Assembly (NCBI RefSeq): GCF_030824435.1
Contig: NZ_JAVBXS010000020.1
Coordinates: forward strand, 124,001-188,000
Length of the DNA: 64,000 nucleotides
Reading direction: 5' to 3'
Source: Rheinheimera sp.
GTDB lineage: Bacteria > Pseudomonadota > Gammaproteobacteria > Enterobacterales > Alteromonadaceae
Shown here: positions 44,346 through 55,683 of the stretch, in pieces
How positions within the stretch are numbered: the first letter of the stretch is position 1
How the letters are laid out: the number at the start of each line of letters is the position of its first letter
Program-made: the position numbers and the translations under genes
Notes under the pieces: model-generated
Database searches by the model: none
The model's input: only the letters and a program-made list of their open reading frames with translations
What the model was told of the DNA's origin: nothing

Positions 44346-45542
44346 TCAGCCGCCGCTGTTGCTGTTCGTTTTTGTCGTTTTTTGCGCCAACCGCATATGC
44401 TGTTGTGGACTTAATACCTGCTGCCAGAACCAGCCAGCTAAAGGCCCTGTCACATCAGCTTCGGCGTTAGTTAATAACACCAGGCCGTAACCACTTTGTG
44501 GTGAATAAGCAATATAAGGCCGGTAACCATCTACCACACCGGCATGATAATACAGACGTTCGTTATCATACTGCACCATACGCCAGCCACGGCCATACCA
44601 GGCACTCACCTGTTTAAACTGCTGCCAGACCGGCCAACGTGGCTTGCCCGGCATTCTGGTTAATGGCTGTTGTAACTGATGAAGTATGTCTTGTGGCAAT
44701 ACATCAGGTCTTTGCCCCAGCATTGCCTGCAGATAAATAGCCAGATCACGTGCGCTGGCATTGACTCCGGCAGCTGTGCTGACACGGTAAAAATTGGCTT
44801 TGGGTTTAACCTGACGCCAGCCTTTACCACCCCGCTCATGTGGCATGGCTTTATTGCGTGACGCCAGTAAAGGTGCCAGACCAACAGAAGCGGTTTGCAT
44901 GCCCAAAGGCTGGAATAAACGCTGCGCCAATAAGTGCTCATATCTTTGCCCTGTCGCACGTTCTAATGCGTTGCCAAGTAAACCAAAAAACACATTCTGA
45001 TAGCTGTAACAACGCCCGAGCGGGCAGACCGGACTTAACTCACGCAGTCTTGGCAAAATTTGCGCCGGGGTTTGATCCGCTTCAATCAAATCTTCAAAGG
45101 CATGAGCCCAGAAACCACTGCTGTGAGATAACACTTGCTCCAGTGTCAGGCTTTGGGTCAGTTCTTCAGTTCTGAGCTGAAGTTCAGGCACATATTTCGA
45201 TAAAGCTTGTTGCAACTGCAGTTGTTGGGCTTGTTGTGCCTGCACCAGACTGACACCGGCAAAAGTCTTTGACACTGAAGCCAGACGAAAGACAGTGTCG
45301 GCATTAACCATGGCACGTTCGCCAACAGCACGCACACCATAATGACCCAGCTTCAGAATGCGGTCGCCCTGCACTATGGCATAAGCCCCGCCCGGTACTT
45401 TAGCCTTTTGCAGTTTCTCCCTGAATTGTTGTTCAAAACTGCTGATAAGCTCAGCTTCTGACAAAGGTGCGGCCGACAAAGCCACACTAAACAATGCCAA
45501 AACAACCAAAGCCCCGCCTAAACGTGATATAGATGCAAACAT
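44346..45542 (-). CDS. Class C beta-lactamase-fold serine hydrolase
   Basis: 398 residues from ATG 45542 with GGAG upstream. Signal peptide about 1-21. Three active-site motifs: FRLASVSKTFAG (SxxK), YSYQN (Tyr-X-Asn type) and YHAGVVDGY (His-Ala-Gly in place of KTG). The HAG motif is common in EstB/AmpH-type esterases and peptidases rather than true AmpC, so hydrolysis of beta-lactams is not assured. Third gene of an operon with a BlaI-like repressor and an M56/M23 protein: 51 nt after that gene's stop, in the same direction and with no terminator between. Confidence 0.85.
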   Translation of the reverse strand: MFASISRLGGALVVLALFSVALSAAPLSEAELISSFEQQFREKLQKAKVPGGAYAIVQGDRILKLGHYGVRAVGERAMVNADTVFRLASVSKTFAGVSLVQAQQAQQLQLQQALSKYVPELQLRTEELTQSLTLEQVLSHSSGFWAHAFEDLIEADQTPAQILPRLRELSPVCPLGRCYSYQNVFFGLLGNALERATGQRYEHLLAQRLFQPLGMQTASVGLAPLLASRNKAMPHERGGKGWRQVKPKANFYRVSTAAGVNASARDLAIYLQAMLGQRPDVLPQDILHQLQQPLTRMPGKPRWPVWQQFKQVSAWYGRGWRMVQYDNERLYYHAGVVDGYRPYIAYSPQSGYGLVLLTNAEADVTGPLAGWFWQQVLSPQQHMRLAQKTTKTNSNSGG

Positions 45543-45593
45543 GCCAAACTCCAAAAAATAACCTTAAATCCCACCGCTGATACTTTGTATTGC

Positions 45594-46991
45594 TTAAGGC
45601 AAAGCAGGTAAATACAACATCGGGTCCTGCTGCACACCAAAGTGCAACAATTCAAAATGCAAATGTGGTCCTGTCGCTTTGCCACTGCTGCCAACTCCGC
45701 CTATCAACTCACCTGCTGCCACTTTATCACCCGGTTTTACCTGGCTCTGTTGCAGATGGGCATATAGGGTCTGATAACCATCACCATGGTCGAGCAATAC
45801 CACTAAACCAAAATTGCGATCCAAACTGTTGTCATCAGCTATCAGCACCCGGCCAGGCGCTACAGCAAGCACATGGTCGCCGCTGCGGCCTGCCAGATCC
45901 AATCCCAGATGCGGTTTGTATTGCCGGATGGCACTTTTCACCCCATAACCAGAATTTACGGCCACCTGTTGTAACGGCCACTGCCACTGCTCTGGCGCAG
46001 CGCGCTGCCACGAAAACTGGCTTAATACCAGATGACAACAAGCCATCATCAGCAGGGTTACCAGTGCCAACAACAACAATTTTCCGGCAGGCCACAACGG
46101 CACTGGTTGAAACAATTGGGATAATCGCTGCCGGTAAAACTGTTCGTCAAATGTCTGCCCGGTAAAACCGGCACTGACCTGACTGGCGTGCTGCTGATAC
46201 TTCAGACTGGTCAGCATGGCTTTGCCGTAACTTAAAGCCAGCTCCGGTTGTTGGGCCAACACCTGTCTGTCAACACTGAGCTCCATCGCACGGATAAAAG
46301 CAGTTTCCAGCTTTTGCACCACAGGATTAAACCAACACAAAACGCCCAATAACCGCCAGCACAACAATTGTTGTGGATCACGCCGACGCACATGGCAGAG
46401 CTCATGCTGCAACAGCAGTAGCCGCTCGGCAGGTGGAAAAAAGGCAAAGTTGGCCGGTAACACCAGATGCAAACGGAAAAAACCAAACACAAAAGCTGAA
46501 CTGGCACCCTGTTGTTTCAGTTGTAATAAACCAAGTTGTTCTGTTAAACCGGCAGCCGAAGTTTCATTGATACCTGTTAATAAATCGGTGGCACTGACAG
46601 CTTGCGCTTTGCGACATAACAGCTGTAGCTGCCGCCATTGTCTGATGAGTTGCCATAACCGCCAGGCTGCACCGCTAATCCAGCATGTGAACACCAACAA
46701 AACCAGCAGATCTGCACCACCCAGTTTTTGTTGTAAACCCGGGTGCATAGGTGCTGCAACCCAATAAGCTGCTGTGCCTACACCTTGCTGCAACAACTGC
46801 GGTGGCATGATCCAGTCTTGTTGCCATTGCAGCGGTGGCCAAAGCGGTAAGCTACAACAAAGCAGCACCAGCCAATAACCTGCCGGCCACTGCGCCAGAG
46901 CTGGGATACGACGTAATAAAACCTGCAGAGCGGTCCACAATAAATAACTCCAGCCGACAAAAACAACCAGCTGCACCAGTACCAGCAACAT
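45594..46991 (-). CDS. BlaR1-like M56 membrane peptidase fused to M23 (LytM) peptidase
   Basis: 465 residues. About four hydrophobic helices surround an M56 zinc peptidase with HELCH (His196, Glu197, His200), the fold that cleaves BlaI/MecI in BlaR1/MecR1. The C-terminal third (about 340-465) is an M23 endopeptidase with HLGLDLA (His361, Asp365) and HLHFEL (His443, His445), the LytM zinc motifs. BlaR1 has a penicillin-binding sensor at this position, so this protein would sense or cut peptidoglycan. Its ATG shares a base with the repressor stop (TAATG). Confidence 0.9.
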   Translation of the reverse strand: MLLVLVQLVVFVGWSYLLWTALQVLLRRIPALAQWPAGYWLVLLCCSLPLWPPLQWQQDWIMPPQLLQQGVGTAAYWVAAPMHPGLQQKLGGADLLVLLVFTCWISGAAWRLWQLIRQWRQLQLLCRKAQAVSATDLLTGINETSAAGLTEQLGLLQLKQQGASSAFVFGFFRLHLVLPANFAFFPPAERLLLLQHELCHVRRRDPQQLLCWRLLGVLCWFNPVVQKLETAFIRAMELSVDRQVLAQQPELALSYGKAMLTSLKYQQHASQVSAGFTGQTFDEQFYRQRLSQLFQPVPLWPAGKLLLLALVTLLMMACCHLVLSQFSWQRAAPEQWQWPLQQVAVNSGYGVKSAIRQYKPHLGLDLAGRSGDHVLAVAPGRVLIADDNSLDRNFGLVVLLDHGDGYQTLYAHLQQSQVKPGDKVAAGELIGGVGSSGKATGPHLHFELLHFGVQQDPMLYLPALP

Positions 46992-47374
46992 TAGTCAGCC
47001 GCCTTTTGTTGTGCCGCCAGCCGCGTTAATAACAGCTCCAGCTCGGCAATTTCACTGGCATTCACCAACTGACTGCCGGCAAACATGGCTACGGGCACAG
47101 GCCCTTTTAACTCAAAAATACGACTGGCAAAATCCTGGGCAAAAGCAGCCAGGGTACTGACTTTATCCGCCAGCGCGCTGTAATTGTTTTTATGACCCTG
47201 ACTTTCGAAACTTACCAAACCTTTTTCTGTCATACGCTCCAGCGTTTTGCGGGTAGAGGAATAACCCCAGCCCAGCACATGCACCAGCTCGTCGTGCAGT
47301 TCACGGGCTGTTAGTGGCTGTTTTAACCACAAGAGTTTGAGTATTTCCAGTTCCGGAGCTGTTGGTTGTTGCAT
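46991..47374 (-). CDS. BlaI/MecI-family transcriptional repressor
   Basis: 127 residues from ATG 47374 with GAGG upstream; a frame upstream to 47452 includes the operator region. Winged-helix pattern PTAPELEILKLLWLKQPLTARELHDELV, then YSSTRKTLERMTEKGLVSF with the recognition helix, and a C-terminal helix for dimerisation (about 85-127). MecI/BlaI repressors are cleaved and inactivated by the M56 domain of their sensor. First gene of the three-gene operon; two inverted repeats lie 38-87 bp upstream of its start. Confidence 0.92.
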   Translation of the reverse strand: MQQPTAPELEILKLLWLKQPLTARELHDELVHVLGWGYSSTRKTLERMTEKGLVSFESQGHKNNYSALADKVSTLAAFAQDFASRIFELKGPVPVAMFAGSQLVNASEIAELELLLTRLAAQQKAAD

Positions 47375-47411
47375 AACCTCACCACAATAAAAAAGCGCAG
47401 TGCACGCATAG

Positions 47412-47461
47412 TGCGACAAATGTCGCAGCACTGCAAGCAAAAACTGCGACATCAGTCGCAG
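47412..47461 (-). promoter_or_regulatory. Paired operators of the BlaI-like repressor
   Basis: Two similar inverted repeats upstream of the repressor gene: TGCGAC-AAAT-GTCGCA (47412-47427) and CTGCGAC-ATCA-GTCGCAG (47444-47461), both with arms CTGCGAC-like and a 4-bp spacer. Centres are 33 bp apart, about three helical turns. Other BlaI operators have TACA/TGTA cores, so this would be a different sequence. The first copy may overlap the promoter. Confidence 0.7.
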
Positions 47462-48243: not shown

Positions 48244-51200
48244 TCAGAACTGATAACGCAGATGCAGCAGATATTGGTTTACGTCCGCCGGCTCCAATAA
48301 CACACGCTGGTAACTGATGCCAGCCTGCCAGGCAGGGCTTAACTTATAATTCAGCGTCAGCCCGGAAAACCAGTCAGTGCCATCCAGTTCCTGAGTTAAA
48401 GTGGTTGCCGCCATTTTACTGCTCAGATCTGCTTGCCAGTGCATCACCCCAAGCGGTAGTTCAAATTGCCAGTCATTCAGCTGCCAGAATTGCCAGCGTA
48501 CAGCGGCCGACACCCCATCACCCAATACCGGTGTGGCCTGTGCCACCAGCTGCTGATATTTGGCCGCATCCAACACAGAACCGGAAATAGTGGCACTGCC
48601 TTCACCCAGTTTTTGGTAACCAAGCTCAACAGCCAGATTGTCGAGCAGACGATAACCCGCCAGCAGCTGATAGCCAGTGTCAGTGTTGTCAGTGCTGATC
48701 AGACTGCCTTGCGGCAGGTTAAATTGCCGCGAACCGGCTTCACTCTGGCCAGCACCCAGCTGCAGATAAACATCTGCAGCTGCCGCCTGGGTTGTCGCCA
48801 GCATGGCGACAACAAACACCACTAGCAAGCTGGCACGACGGCGCCAGCCCGCTAACACCGCCAGCCCGAGCAGCATCCAGCCACCACTGCTGCCACCTGA
48901 AGATTTATTCTCCACCACCACATTCTGGTACGCCTTGACGGTCACAGTGACAACAGCACCGGCTTCACCACCTTTGCTGTCACGGATACGGTAACTCAAC
49001 TGATCTGTACCGCTAAAACCGGCTTTTGGTGTGTATCTCAGCTGGTTGTCAGCTTCGATACGCACTGTACCTTGCTGCGCTGTTGCACTGATCACTGTTA
49101 ATGCATCCTTGTCGATGTCCTGATCGTTGACCAGCACATTGATAGTGATAGCGGTGCGATCGTCGGTACTGGCACTGTCATTCACCGCAACCGGCGCAGT
49201 ATTAAAGTACACAGACACAGCTCCAGGGTCGACCACTGCAGAGTTCACCAGGCCATCATCATCGTTGGCTCCACCGTCCTCTATGGTCAGTTGCACACAC
49301 ATATGGCCGGCAGTCAGGCCCGGCGTCCAGTCTGCAGCACCAGGTGGTGGGCAATAACCCGGATTACCTGCGGCAGAATGCAATGCATTGTCTGCATCTT
49401 GGACAAAAGTCACCCAACGACCACGCTGATATTTACGATATACCGCATTGGCCGGAATGGCGGCTCTTTGTGGCAACACCACCCGCACCGACTGACCAGG
49501 GGTTGGCAAATCGCGGATAGCAAAGTCAAACACACCACCCACAGGCTCAAAAGCCGGATCAACCACTAAACCATCAAGTTGCCCTACCTCTTCGTCCAGC
49601 ACCTGCACCCCACCCGAAGTTCCGCCTCGGGCAAATAAACCCAGACCACAACGTACACCGGGGTCACATTCAACCAGGTAAGCATTGCTGGTATTGCCCT
49701 GCTGCGGCAGGATATTCGGCGACGGCATATTGTCCAGATAATTTGGAATGCCGTTGTCGTCGGTATCCCCTGTACCTTCCTGCTGGTCATTAAAACCATC
49801 GCGGTCTGTATCGGTATTAACATCTAACACCGGTAAGCTGGCGATAATGCGGAAATAAATCGAAGCCTGCACAGGGGCGCCTGCTGAGTCTGTCACCGTC
49901 AGCTGTACCTGATGACTGCCATTTAAACCTGCAGCACTAAAAGTTCTGCTGGCATCGGTAGTGTTGCCGTCGGTGTCAGCTAAACCGCTGGTCGCCGACC
50001 AATCGTAACTGTGTGAATCACCTTTATTGGCATCTGTGACCTGTGCTGTGACCACCACAGGCCCGCCGTTGGGTGTAATCAGGCTGGTATTGACACCACC
50101 CTGTGTGATACTCAGATTCACCACGGGCGGAATATTTCCACTGCGGATATCAATGCTATGTTTATTGGCTGCGCCGTCATTCAGGCCCTCACCCAACACA
50201 ATCACCAGTTGACTGTCATTGAGTCCGGTGACCTGCGCCAGAGTCAGCGGAATGTCCACTTCCAGCTGCCCTGCCTGGGTGAATGTGGCTATCCCATCCA
50301 CCAGATTATGCTCAGCTGCAGTGGCAGTAGTTTCAATAGTATCAATAACATAAGGCACACTCAGCGGATACTGTGGCGCGTTGCCATTTAACAGCACCTT
50401 AAAGCTCACCTCACTGCCACGGATGGCAACTTGTGATTTGCTCAGTGACACCAGCGGCTGAATATCCAGTTGTTGTATGGCTTCACCACTGACTCCCACC
50501 GCATTGATGGCTTTCCAGCTGACGTCATGACGGCCTGGTGGCAACAAAATAGCGCCATCTTTTGTTAAACCGCCAACAGTCACAGTGCAGCAGTCATTGC
50601 CCGATACCCCGTCTTTGGCCAGTTTTTTCAACGCAGCCTCTAGCTCGGCCTGACTGGCATTGGCCGGCAGTCCCAACAATTGACGCATAGTCACAGGCGT
50701 AAATAAGCCTGTGGCATTTAATATCAAAGTCTCTGGCGCCGTGACTATCGGCTGCAACGGATCAACAGTGGCAATAACTTCCAGATCAAAAGCAGCTAAA
50801 GAAGTGCTGGTTGTACCGTCACTGACACTAATCACAATACCCGAAGTTGTGCCGGTATCGCTGCCAGCCGGAGTGCCGGTTAAGGCACCGGTGGCAGTAT
50901 CAAAACTGGCCCAGTCTGGTTTGTTGCTGATACTGAAAGTCAGGGTGTCACCAGTGTCGATATCCGAAGCCGTTGGCACAAAACTATATGCTGTGTCCTG
51001 ATCCAGACTGGTGGCTGGAGTACCGCTAATCGTTGGGGTATCGTTCACTGCCGCTATCAGTACATTGACAATGATACTGTCGCTTGTTGTGCCATCACTG
51101 ACCTCAACTGCAAAGCTGTCACTGCCATGGTAGTTGGCTTCTGGTGTGTAACTGACCACGCCTGCACTAACACTGGCTGTACCATTAGATGCCGCACTAC

Positions 51201-54200
51201 CGATACTCCAGCTAAGCGGGTCATTATCCGCATCTGTGGCATTCAGCGTCAGCGCAAAAGCAGTTGGTGTACCGTCTTCACTCATATTGACGCTGGTAGC
51301 GGCACCTTGTGTGATCTCAGGCGCCTGATTGGCTGCCACTGGCGTCACTGCATTTGACGTCGCTGAAGCCGCGCTGGTGCCGGCAACATTAGTTGCTGTC
51401 ACAGTAAAGCTATAAGCAGTACCATTGTTTAAGCCGGTAAAAATAAAAGGTGACGCTGTAGCAGCTTTGCTGACACCGCCAGGACTGGCTGTCACTGTGT
51501 AACCTGTTATGGCACTACCGCCATTTGACGCCGGCGCGCTAAAGGTCACTGTTGCCTGAGCATCTCCCGCTGTTGCTGCCCCTATAGTTGGCGCGCCTGG
51601 CACCACTGCATTCACAGTGAAACTACGGGACACCTGAGGCGCCGCCAGATAGCTGCCGTTACCGGCCTGATCGGCATTAATGGTACAGGTGCCGGCAGTG
51701 ACAAAAGTCAGCAAACCACCACTGGTAATGGTACAAACTCCCGGGGTTGATGAGGTGAAAGTCGGGGTCAAGCCTGAATCTGATGTCGCCGTCAGCGTTG
51801 GGCTGGTGTCAAAATTTTGTGCGCCCGGGTTATTAAAAGTAATAGTCTGAGTGGCTGCCGGTGTAATCGAATTAGAGGCACCGGAAGCAGGACCTGTACC
51901 GGCAACGTTATCTGCAGTGACGGTAAAGGTATAAGCCTGACCATTGGTTAAACCTGTCACCACTATGGGTGAAGCAGCACCACTCACCGGCGCTACATCA
52001 GGCGGGCTCACAGTCACGGTATAAGCTGTAATAGCAGTACCACCGGTATTTGCAGGTGCGACAAAAGCAACGCTGGCCTGGGTGTCACCGGCTATGGCTG
52101 TTCCTATGGTTGGAGCGCCCGGAACTACCGGACTTACGCTGAAAGAACGGCTCACTTGCGTTGCAGCCAGGAAGGACGAGTCTCCTGCCTGATCGGCATT
52201 AATAGTACAGGTTCCTGTCGCTATAAAGGTCAACACACCACCACTGGTAATAGTACAAACCCCGGTGGTTGATGAAGTGAAAGTGACCACATAACCACCA
52301 CCAGCCGACGAAGTTGCGCTCAATGTTGGAGAAGTACCAAAGTTCTGAGCCCCCGGATTCGCAAAGGTAATTGTTTGTGGTGAGGCAGGCGTGATGGAGT
52401 TGGACGCCGCAGAAGCAGCACCTGTACCTGCAGAGTTAGTGGCCGTCACCGTAAAGGTATAAGCAATGCCATTGGTTAATCCTGTCACTGTAATAGGCGA
52501 GCTGGCACCCGTACCTGTTGCACCGCCTGGACTTGCTGTCACTGTATAACCAGTGATAGCCGCACCGCCAATACTGGCAGGCGCAGTAAAAGCCACTGAC
52601 GCCTGGGTATCACCAGCAGTGGCAGTACCAATAGTTGGTGCGCCCGGAACTACCGCATTCACAGTAAAAGTCTGGGTGACCGTAGTGGCGGCATTGGTCG
52701 CCGAATCACCTGCCTGATCTGCATCTATAGTACAGCTACCCGCAGTCACAAAGGTTAGGGCACCACCACTGGTAATAGTACAAACCCCTGTGGTCGATGA
52801 GCTGAAAGTAACAGTTAAACCGTCAGTTCCAGTGGCAGAGTCAGCTGTAGCCGTCAGTGTTGGAGTAGTTCCAAAGTTCTGCGCACCAGGGTTAGCAAAA
52901 CTGATAGTTTGCGCACCTTTAGGCGTGGCTGAGTTGGAAGCGCCGGAAGCAACACTGGTACCCACAGCGTTTGTTGCAGTCACGGTAAAGGTATAAGCAG
53001 TGCCGTTATCTAAACCTGTTACAGTTGCAGTACAAGCCGCAGGCCCTGCGCAAGTACCAAAGGCACCGCCCGGGCTGGCTGTCGCAGTGTAAGTGGTAAT
53101 AGCAGAACCGCCGTTGCTGCCAGGTGCACTGAAGGTCACAGCAACCTGACCGTCACTCGCTGTTGCAGTGCCTATGGTCGGGGCGTCAGGTGCTGATATG
53201 GCGTTGCTGGTGGTGATGCCATTACCGGTTAAATCCGCCACAACAACGGCGGCATCGGCACCAGCAGTCCAATCTTCAGCCGCAGCCAGATTGTAAGTGG
53301 TGGCATCATTCGAACTGGTACCGTTTTTATTTAACAGCAAATTAATTGCATTTTTGTCTGTGGCACTGAGAGTCAAAGTGACACTGGTACCCGAAGTAAT
53401 TTCAACATTCGAGGTGTCGGTTAGGGTGTAAGTGCTGCCACCTTCACCGGTCAGGGTAAATTTGTTAGCCACTATATCGTTGCTGGCACCGTTTAATTTC
53501 AGCAAACCTGTGCCTGTTACCACCAAAGCGCCGGTTGATGCATTGTAAGTTGCACTGGTGATAGTTGGCACAGCCACATTGCTGACAGTAACGCCATTTC
53601 CTGTGGTATCAGCAATAGCCACAGCGGTGTCAGCACCGGCATTCCAGTCTTCAGCGGCTGCCAGATTATAAGTTGTAGCTCCTGTTGAGCTGGTGCCATT
53701 TTTATTCAGGATCAGGTTGGCAGCGGCTCTGTCCGTAGCACTCAGGGTCAGTGTAAAACTGCTACCTGAAGTAATTTCGACATTTGAGGTGTCGGTCAGG
53801 GTGTAAGTGCTGCCACCTTCACCGGTCAGGGTAAATTTATTGGCAATAATTTCATTCGTGGCACCACTGAGTTTTTTCAGGTTGGTCCCTGTTACCGCCA
53901 ATACACCAGTACTGGCATCATAAGTGGCGGATGTCACTGTCGGTGCCGCCACAGTTGCTGTTACACCATTGCCCGTTAAATCTGCGGTAGCAGCCGAATT
54001 AGCAATAAAACCAGCGGCACCTGCCAGGTTATAGGTTGTACCGCCTGTTGAACTGGTGCCATTTTTATTTACTATTAAATTAACCGCAGCCATGTCGGTG
54101 GCACTTAGGGTCAGGGTAAAAGCAGTGGCCGAACTAATTTCCACATTGGCAGTATCGGTCAGGGTATAAGTGCTGCCACCTTCACCTGTAATAGTAAAGG

Positions 54201-54933
54201 TATTGGCCACCACATCATTGGTTACACCAGCAGTTGCGGTAAAGTTGGTGCCGGTAACAACCAAAGCGCCGGTTGAGCTGTTATAAGTGGCTGAGGTAAC
54301 AGTGGGAGCAGGCACTACAGGGTCGTCAATCACAATATTATTAATGGAATGATTAGTGGCAGCTTGAGTTCCTTGATAACCTCCAGCTGAAATATATAGT
54401 CTGACCTCATCAACATAATCAAAAGTGCTATCCAATGAGATGTTCATTGGCGTGGCGCTGGGGTCATATGCCTCAAAGCTGGTGGATGCTACTTCAGCTG
54501 CATTACGATATCCTTTTATCGTCACTGTCGTGCTTTCTGTCTCTCCCCAGTTGTAATACTTAAACCCATTAATCTGAAACTCACTGCCATCACTGGACTT
54601 AATCGCCATGCCTTTGGTGCCATTATTCACAGCCCATGTTAAACCAGAATAACTGTTATCCGAACTAAACATAAAACTGTTATCTTCCCAGGATAAAGTT
54701 CCGAAGTTTGTGCCAGCCACATCGGTAATATTTAAAACTTGCATGTTAATCCAGGCAATGCTGGATGAACCGCCCTCACCATCCTCTGCTATGCCATCAG
54801 TCCATGCACCTCCACCATCGCTGGTGAAATTTAACGAAATCGGCGCAGCCAATACTGGCATGGCAACTAAACCCAGGATCACCCAAAAAAACAGGTATGT
54901 TTTGAGCAGGGCATTTTTCATATTAATTTTCAT
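48244..54933 (-). CDS. Giant multi-domain surface protein with GlyGly-CTERM-like tail fused to outer-membrane barrel
   Basis: 2229 residues, ATG 54933 (a second ATG at 54921). Signal peptide about 1-29. Regions: unknown N-terminal domain (30-205); three repeats of about 120 residues beginning PTVTSATY (near 209, 339, 461); four FN3-like domains (near 581, 761, 938, 1113) alternating with [12 protein letters not shown]-type modules; cadherin/Ig-like domains (1199-1400); a PKD-like domain; a TSP3-like Ca-binding stretch [11 protein letters not shown] (about 1713); and a VCBS/cadherin-like domain (about 1911). At about 2003-2028 comes SSGGSSGGW, a helix and WRRR, a GlyGly-CTERM-like signal, but the frame continues into [18 protein letters not shown] (second signal-like) and an 8-stranded barrel ending YQF. 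Adhesin-like cell-surface role is inferred. Confidence 0.85.
51340..54310 (-). repeat. Internal domain repeats in the giant protein gene
   Basis: The FN3-like units (about 530 bp period, 51340-53200) and the PTVTSATY units (about 365-bp period, 53200-54310) are similar at DNA level. Examples are the recurring GGTGCGCCCGG near each FN3 start and the recurring CTGCCACCTTCACC in the second set. They arose by tandem duplication and could recombine, changing protein length. Confidence 0.7.
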
Positions 54934-55068: not shown

Positions 55069-55683
55069 TTAGTTGCGCGGAGGATAAATACCTTCAAGGG
55101 CAATAATAAAATTCATCCCCAGATAAGGGTTTCGAATCGGCAATGGCTGACTTCCGCCAGCTGGTTGGACAGTTACATTAACATTCAGCGTTGTGTTGAT
55201 AGTTTCTGGATTAGCGAGGGTAACAGGGGTAGTCAGCTTATCTGACCAAATTGCGGCTGAAGGTGGCCCGCCTGCGCTAGATGCACCCAAAATATTATTG
55301 GTTGTTGAAGGTGTTGTTGATGCGTTTGACGCTGTGCCAGCCACTTGCAATGAACCTACACTTGTCGCAGTCGCTGCAGTGGTGGCCCCATGGGTATGTG
55401 TAGGCATCTGGGCGGCAAGAATGGTGACATTTTCAGTCCCGGCCTGTTCCCCCAAAGTAACAGGCGACAACCCTGGCGATTGGCCTGTGCCTACCGGAGC
55501 TCGGCCTCCGAGGTTTGGCAATGCAAAAGTGCTGACACCATCACCACCATAGCTGGTACTTAATAGTGAAAACAAAGCGCTGTTTGTTGCAATTGACATG
55601 AGCTGGCCATTACAAAAAGCCCAGCCTTGTGGGGCATAATTACCGGCAAACATGCGGATTTCGCCTAAAAACGGATCAGACAT
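55069..55683 (-). CDS. Phage tail-collar (microcystin-dependent MdpB-like) protein
   Basis: 204 residues, ATG 55683 behind AAGGAGAG. N-terminal FLGEIRMFAGNYAPQGWAFCNGQ is the tail-collar domain signature; TFALPNLGGRAPVGTG follows, then a Ser/Thr/Ala-rich repeat region and a C-terminal NPYLGMNFIIALEGIYP. Such proteins occur outside prophages in many bacteria, often alone; no other phage gene is near. It is 135 bp upstream of the giant protein gene in the same direction and could share its transcript. Confidence 0.88.
   Translation of the reverse strand: MSDPFLGEIRMFAGNYAPQGWAFCNGQLMSIATNSALFSLLSTSYGGDGVSTFALPNLGGRAPVGTGQSPGLSPVTLGEQAGTENVTILAAQMPTHTHGATTAATATSVGSLQVAGTASNASTTPSTTNNILGASSAGGPPSAAIWSDKLTTPVTLANPETINTTLNVNVTVQPAGGSQPLPIRNPYLGMNFIIALEGIYPPRN

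Follow-up and report, generated by a model that had tools for sequence, protein, structure and literature searches.

A large frame with an internal tag and a C-terminal barrel

We analysed a stretch of 64,000 nucleotides from Rheinheimera sp. (contig NZ_JAVBXS010000020.1), referred to here as the window, in which a single gene on the minus strand encodes a protein that carries a GlyGly-CTERM sorting tag in its interior and an outer-membrane barrel at its end. The parts of this gene are listed in Table 1. The frame contains no stop anywhere along its 2229 residues. Its body, which we call the passenger, is of surface type, with four fn3 stretches and several Big_9/cadherin-like domains; a choice_anch_U domain occupies residues 1799–1907, and the last Big_9 domain lies at 1911–1998. 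Judged by hydropathy, there is no other membrane segment between the N-terminal signal and the tag, the next peak reaching only 1.61.

The genome search matched TIGR03501 to the tag at 20.2 bits, versus a curated cut-off of 15.5 (48835–48900). When the whole protein was compared with NCBIfam by hmmscan, TIGR03501 was not listed, and a weak MYXO-CTERM match appeared there instead. The earlier note on this DNA had reported the tag and the barrel in one frame, and this arrangement is real; the residue positions needed correction, as SSGGSSGGW begins at residue 2011 and WRRR extends to 2033, about 5–8 residues later than noted. In the available portions of the paper by Haft and Varghese (PMC3237569), the GlyGly-CTERM tag is described as lying at the extreme C-terminus. 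Here 196 residues follow the tag, so it does not share the extreme C-terminal position of GlyGly-CTERM proteins. The same genome has eight tags over the TIGR03501 cut-off, and seven of them are followed by 28 residues or fewer, the tag in the window being the exception. Four other genomes contain 25 tags over the cut-off, with at most 20 residues after 23 of them; the other two are internal, and both belong to members of the barrel family described here. Elsewhere in the window, a cyclophilin-type peptidyl-prolyl isomerase (PF00160; 30220–31083, plus strand) has an ordinary terminal GlyGly-CTERM tag. The rhombosortase gene that the earlier note had proposed to look for is present in the genome (165 bits, cut-off 84), together with GspD, the secretin of the type II secretion system (T2SS; 542 bits). 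Overall, all tested features of the GlyGly-CTERM system were found except the terminal position.

The barrel matched PF01389 OmpA_membrane with 34.6 bits (cut-off 21) and PF13505 OMP_b-brl with 48.6 bits (cut-off 28.7). In an AlphaFold model of the tail, the mean predicted local distance difference test score (pLDDT) was 73, and most of the barrel scored 65–95. The best Foldseek match of the model in the PDB was OmpA (9fzd; E 6.8e-10, template modelling score by target length 0.77). DSSP assigned ten strand pieces in the model from the start of the barrel on, and the count of eight strands rests on the OmpA match. By sequence, a profile of the barrel family finds OmpA chains (best E 0.00035). 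In two relatives, L107 and L127, the barrel is combined with PF00691 and thus forms a whole OmpA; L146 looks alike by eye.

Table 1. Coordinates of the giant gene and its parts in the window.
Feature	Position	Strand	Evidence
Whole gene of the putative polyprotein, 2229 residues	48244..54933	minus	Open reading frame with ATG start; fused homologues
N-terminal Sec signal peptide region (putative), residues 1–30	54844..54933	minus	By eye; top hydropathy at residues 14–28
Passenger: fn3, Big_9/cadherin-like domains, choice_anch_U	48940..54843	minus	Domain searches
Internal GlyGly-CTERM tag (SSGG, membrane helix, WRRR), residues 2011–2033	48835..48903	minus	TIGR03501
Second hydrophobic segment, end AAAA/D, residues 2034–2053	48775..48834	minus	Hydropathy, aligned profile, conservation
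OmpA-like outer-membrane barrel with C-terminal F, residues 2054–2229	48247..48774	minus	Pfam, model, fold search
Internal ATG (M2020), candidate second start	48874..48876	minus	Shine-Dalgarno score −4.9 kcal/mol

Relatives and the junction

A scan of contigs with the window protein alone found no relative, and relatives were found when an alignment served as query. The closest one found was Rheinheimera sp. 4Y26, which is 89% identical over the tail. The order of tag and barrel is not a matter of chance, because this relative and dozens of distant ones keep it. For a nonredundant set built on the last 120 residues, the profile match had to reach the later half of the barrel, which excluded shorter matches such as L198. 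In this set, 98 barrels sit in fused frames, 23 belong to adjacent two-gene versions and 19 are lone. The script had called 95 fused, 24 split and 21 other; once the exceptions had been read, L077, L148 and L035, which a contig end truncates, were counted as fused and L197 as lone. Among the 97 frames of at least 600 residues with a barrel, the tag was present in 95 (94 by script, L077 by eye); of the remaining two, L148 has a degraded tag and L238 has none.

Fused frames occur in Rheinheimera species and in Shewanella sp. HN-41, S. morhuae, S. oncorhynchi and S. profunda. Within the family of the source organism, a query of tag plus barrel matched in 102 of 295 genomes, and a longer query matched in all 22 genomes of the genus, some of them without the barrel. 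We defined a long fused frame by a query start of 27 or less, E below 1e-20 and a frame of more than 600 residues without a stop. Such frames were found in at least 31 of 394 genomes sampled from the order, spread over 10 coded families, among the matches listed; three more genomes (G383, G424 and G436) also read as fused though left out by the query-start rule. A sample of the class gave matches at 1e-12 in 37 of 369 genomes; among the matches that were read, several show the cassette in fused form downstream of other passengers.

Rhombosortase was detected (E ≤1e-18) in 236 of the 394 genomes of the order sample and in 29 of the 31 with a fused frame among the matches listed. Fisher's test gave p 3e-5 for this association, and 2e-4 when the family of the source organism was left out, values that serve as a guide only since the genomes are related.

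Two hydrophobic stretches meet at the junction. The segment at residues 2034–2053 gave the second highest 15-residue hydropathy peak of the protein, after the N-terminal signal, in a listing without peaks that have a higher neighbour fewer than 16 residues away (the tag helix is one of these). All 52 fused frames read in detail have a Gly/Ser tag and helix, then a basic loop with a net charge of +2 to +9, then the second hydrophobic segment. The presence of the tag in these frames is partly a result of selection, because 47 of the 52 were chosen by a match to the tag end of the query. The distribution of charges agrees with a hairpin whose loop would lie in the cytoplasm.

When the 52 second segments were aligned at the start of the barrel, charged residues clustered at positions −20 to −23 and a hydrophobic core spanned −8 to −19, while Leu, Ile, Val, Met and Phe were scarce at −1 to −7 and small residues made up 62% at −2 and 67% at −4. 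In 14 barrels of two-gene versions, which have true N-terminal signals, the layout resembles that of the fused segments. Signal peptidase requires small residues two apart before the cut, and the n-h-c layout with small residues so spaced is seen both in the 52 fused segments and in the 14 two-gene barrels used as a yardstick. The position-resolved profile supports the view that the second segment has the layout of a signal peptide. In L112, the segment reads ALA/D after a Lys, by eye. In the fused relative L106 (genome G291), the segment ends in LTAC, which we take to be a lipobox-like word, and a long linker precedes the barrel, so that this gene may release a lipoprotein barrel; in L257, an extra domain stands between segment and barrel.

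To compare the parts of the junction, we calculated the ratio of nonsynonymous to synonymous differences (pN/pS) between the window and its nearest relative over four stretches, all of them short. The tag stretch (2003–2033) differed in 3 of 31 residues (pN/pS 0.115) and the barrel in 13 of 175 (0.087). The second segment differed in 9 of 20 residues (0.88) and the N-terminal signal in 20 of 29 (0.59). A constrained tag and a loose yet still hydrophobic second segment fit a tag that would be cut and a signal that would then be discarded.

In the 23 two-gene versions, the tag gene ends normally and the barrel is encoded by the next gene with its own signal. The start of the barrel gene lies −11 to +1 nucleotides from the stop of the tag gene in 20 of the 23, and at exactly −4 or −1 in 16; the case is ambiguous for L245 and L249, and in L240 the spacing is +27. 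These start codons were chosen by position and Shine-Dalgarno strength, and a few have alternatives. As a background, 6 of 31 co-directional neighbour pairs in the window lie that close, according to a crude gene finder. The overlap of start and stop in the two-gene forms, and the single frame in the fused forms, indicate tight coupling of both products in either state. Fused and split states have changed into each other repeatedly. In one genus, the sisters L098 (two genes) and L100 (fused) differ by a 2-nucleotide indel just after the tag helix, and the fused L100 still shows the overlap start together with its Shine-Dalgarno site. A tree of 77 barrels (52 fused, 16 split, 9 lone), built quickly without bootstraps and with several long branches, requires at least nine changes between fused and split when lone rows are omitted; the starred branches alone force at least four changes of the split label.

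Several further observations concern gene content around these loci. At L125 in genome G230, about 12 kb separate the ends of two fused polyprotein genes. In the window, the gene immediately upstream of the giant gene, on the same strand, encodes a phage tail collar domain protein (55069–55683, minus; PF07484, 92.5 bits), which may be a partner or a chance neighbour. In Rheinheimera sp. UBA8519 (genome G008), the minus-strand locus L271 retains only the last 132 barrel residues, 87–88% identical to those of the window, in a 149-residue frame between what look by eye like the same outer neighbours; what else belonged to the giant gene has apparently been lost, as has the collar-domain gene. On the other side of the giant gene in the window, 44346–47452 (minus) holds, as judged by eye, a beta-lactamase/esterase-like gene and genes that resemble BlaR-type and BlaI-type regulators.

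Candidate processing and its alternatives

The fusion or polyprotein suggested in the earlier note gains support from the 98 fused and 23 two-gene versions and from both signals in the fused frames that were read, with the cuts themselves inferred. Fused frames are common, so the pattern that the note had named as its refutation, homologues always separate, is absent. From the kept signals and the two-gene homologues we infer a natural polyprotein, and we consider it likely that rhombosortase cuts it at the tag and signal peptidase I behind the internal signal. One gene would thus probably yield two cell-surface proteins in equal amounts.

The following course of events is proposed. The N-terminal signal would start Sec export of a giant adhesin with immunoglobulin-like and fn3 domains, until the GlyGly-CTERM helix stops transfer with RRR on the cytoplasmic side. 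Next, the second hydrophobic segment would act as an internal signal peptide that restarts transfer of the barrel; paired with the tag helix, it would make up a hairpin within the inner membrane. At Gly-Gly, the chain may be cut by rhombosortase, and the new C-terminus of the adhesin may gain a glycerophosphoethanolamine-type lipid moiety. In Vibrio cholerae, the Gly-Gly cut, a modification of this type and T2SS-dependent surface display are described in the available portions of two reports (PMC6219818, PMC13393428). By analogy, the T2SS would bring the adhesin to the surface, as is reported for VesB of V. cholerae in the accessible text of PMC6219818. A cut by signal peptidase I after the second segment would free the barrel for the β-barrel assembly machinery (BAM). 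One translation event would in this way supply adhesin and barrel 1:1, a coupling that other lineages would achieve by two genes with overlapping stop and start. At the surface the two products may be partners, and the barrel may hold or display the adhesin, as the earlier note had suggested.

Several points weigh against this reading. In the portions of PMC3237569 at hand, the extreme C-terminal location of the tag is proposed to aid the choice of substrates, and all tags in the accessible text of the rhombosortase papers (PMC3237569, PMC6219818, PMC13393428) are terminal. Two genomes with fused frames, G398 and G455, show weak rhomboid matches and no rhombosortase over the cut-off; G398 is in 130 contigs, and G455 is in 180 contigs and 80% complete. 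Inside the family of the source organism, co-occurrence is uninformative because rhombosortase is nearly universal there (over the cut-off in 287 of 295 genomes). The fused relative L148 has a degraded tag (TSRGS). The AlphaFold model gives the hairpin pLDDT values below 50. Two candidate lines of support were rejected. The −3/−1 cleavage word occurs in 51 of the 52 second segments (44 with Ala), and a shuffle control fails to discriminate, giving 49.3 and 44.0 (tag helices 43 and 33). The other candidate, rapid change in the second segment, holds for the window pair and not as a general mark, since conservation of the segment fell below that of the barrel in 43 of 71 same-genus pairs, which are non-independent (means 0.68 and 0.76).

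The single open frame, with a C-terminal barrel behind a surface-type passenger, would also suit a chain that is never cut, in which the covalent link between adhesin and barrel persists and the barrel anchors the adhesin in the outer membrane, much as in an autotransporter. We regard this as improbable. Of 97 long frames, 95 retain the tag, which is constrained, homologues occur as two proteins, and the two hydrophobic segments would hold the N-terminus of an uncut barrel in the inner membrane. Moreover, a Pfam search gave no match to the autotransporter barrel PF03797 in the window protein, and the relative L127 stays below the cut-off (20.1 versus 26 bits). The searches for relatives used queries that contain the tag, and tagless fusions are possibly under-sampled. 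Candidates for such fusions were discarded: L236/L256, which starts with a separate N-terminal signal and lacks a tag gene upstream, and L247, in which tag and second segment are present further upstream.

We give no better prospects to the possibility that the barrel is made mainly from an internal start in the fused gene and that the fused product is incidental. M2020 lies in the membrane helix of the tag, and the GGTGG upstream of it accounts for its score against the anti-Shine-Dalgarno sequence, which is at the weak end of the range at the starts of 16 two-gene pairs (−3.9 to −11.9). Other starts in the linker of the window score −3.5 or weaker. The product from M2020 would place an odd 14-residue lead, a hydrophobic stretch and RRR, before the signal. 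Some relatives do keep a junction start with a Shine-Dalgarno site, such as the GTG of L100 with −7.9, and GGAG precedes TTG or GTG codons ahead of the basic loop in the Rheinheimera relatives L079, L080, L083–L086, L088 and L089, where these starts could yield a short ordinary signal peptide. On the other hand, such Shine-Dalgarno-like words fall in the Gly codons of the tag or in a conserved AGA stretch, and ribosomes must read through regardless of internal starts because the frame has no stop. An extra internal barrel product from the fused gene is possible and not needed.

A sequencing error or a recent loss of a stop codon, which the earlier note had also raised and with which the existence of adjacent two-gene versions would agree, has a negligible probability and is refuted for the family, given constraint on both sides of the junction and the recurrence of the fused frame in independent genomes of Rheinheimera and Shewanella, across at least 10 coded families within the order, and also in other families of the class.

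Returning to the polyprotein, a broader proposal seems to us evenly balanced between true and false: that it represents a widespread class in which a C-terminal sorting tag functions within a chain, and rhombosortase and signal peptidase I release a lipid-anchored giant adhesin and a barrel 1:1 to form one surface unit, the cassette of tag, loop, signal and barrel having been repeatedly fused and unfused across Gammaproteobacteria and joined to different passengers.

Significance and relation to known systems

In the openly licensed PubMed Central (PMC) literature, as far as its accessible text goes, no mention of an internal GlyGly-CTERM tag was found, which is no proof of absence from print; under bacterial polyproteins or FbcH, that literature likewise gave nothing on this arrangement. 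The internal cassette would imply that a second membrane segment and a downstream domain do not prevent rhombosortase from accepting a substrate, and that polyprotein processing may be used to balance an adhesin with an outer-membrane partner. Fused and two-gene forms within one genus are natural test pairs for these ideas. Tools that seek tags at protein ends alone will miss the internal class.

The closest known system is that of GlyGly-CTERM and rhombosortase (TIGR03501/TIGR03902), exemplified by VesB and RssP of Vibrio cholerae. The window protein shares with it the same tripartite tag over the cut-off and, by eye, the N-terminal signal, and the genome has both the rhombosortase and the T2SS secretin. 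The difference is that the tag is internal here and is followed by a second signal-like segment and a barrel. That barrel resembles OmpA-like barrels (PF01389/PF13505; PDB 9fzd, 1bxw) in fold, profile match and C-terminal Phe, but it is made behind another secreted protein, and its predicted signal peptide is internal. The likeness to the AcfA family (NF033908) is weak, as it involves the N-terminal part of the barrel and reaches 33 bits, far below the cut-off of 100. The choice-of-anchor U domain (NF041766) is present in the passenger, and its CPPPG...CVQL pattern was seen by eye shortly before several internal tags, but neither a barrel nor a polyprotein is implied by this domain. The absence of PF03797 separates the window protein from classical autotransporters. 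Bacterial polyproteins are regarded as rare. In one of them, the cytochrome bc1 precursor FbcH of Bradyrhizobium, signal peptidase splits the chain at an internal signal sequence. FbcH is thus a bacterial polyprotein with an internal signal sequence, as we propose for the window protein; it differs in that its products are respiratory proteins of the inner membrane, and no sorting tag, rhomboid or outer-membrane product is involved.

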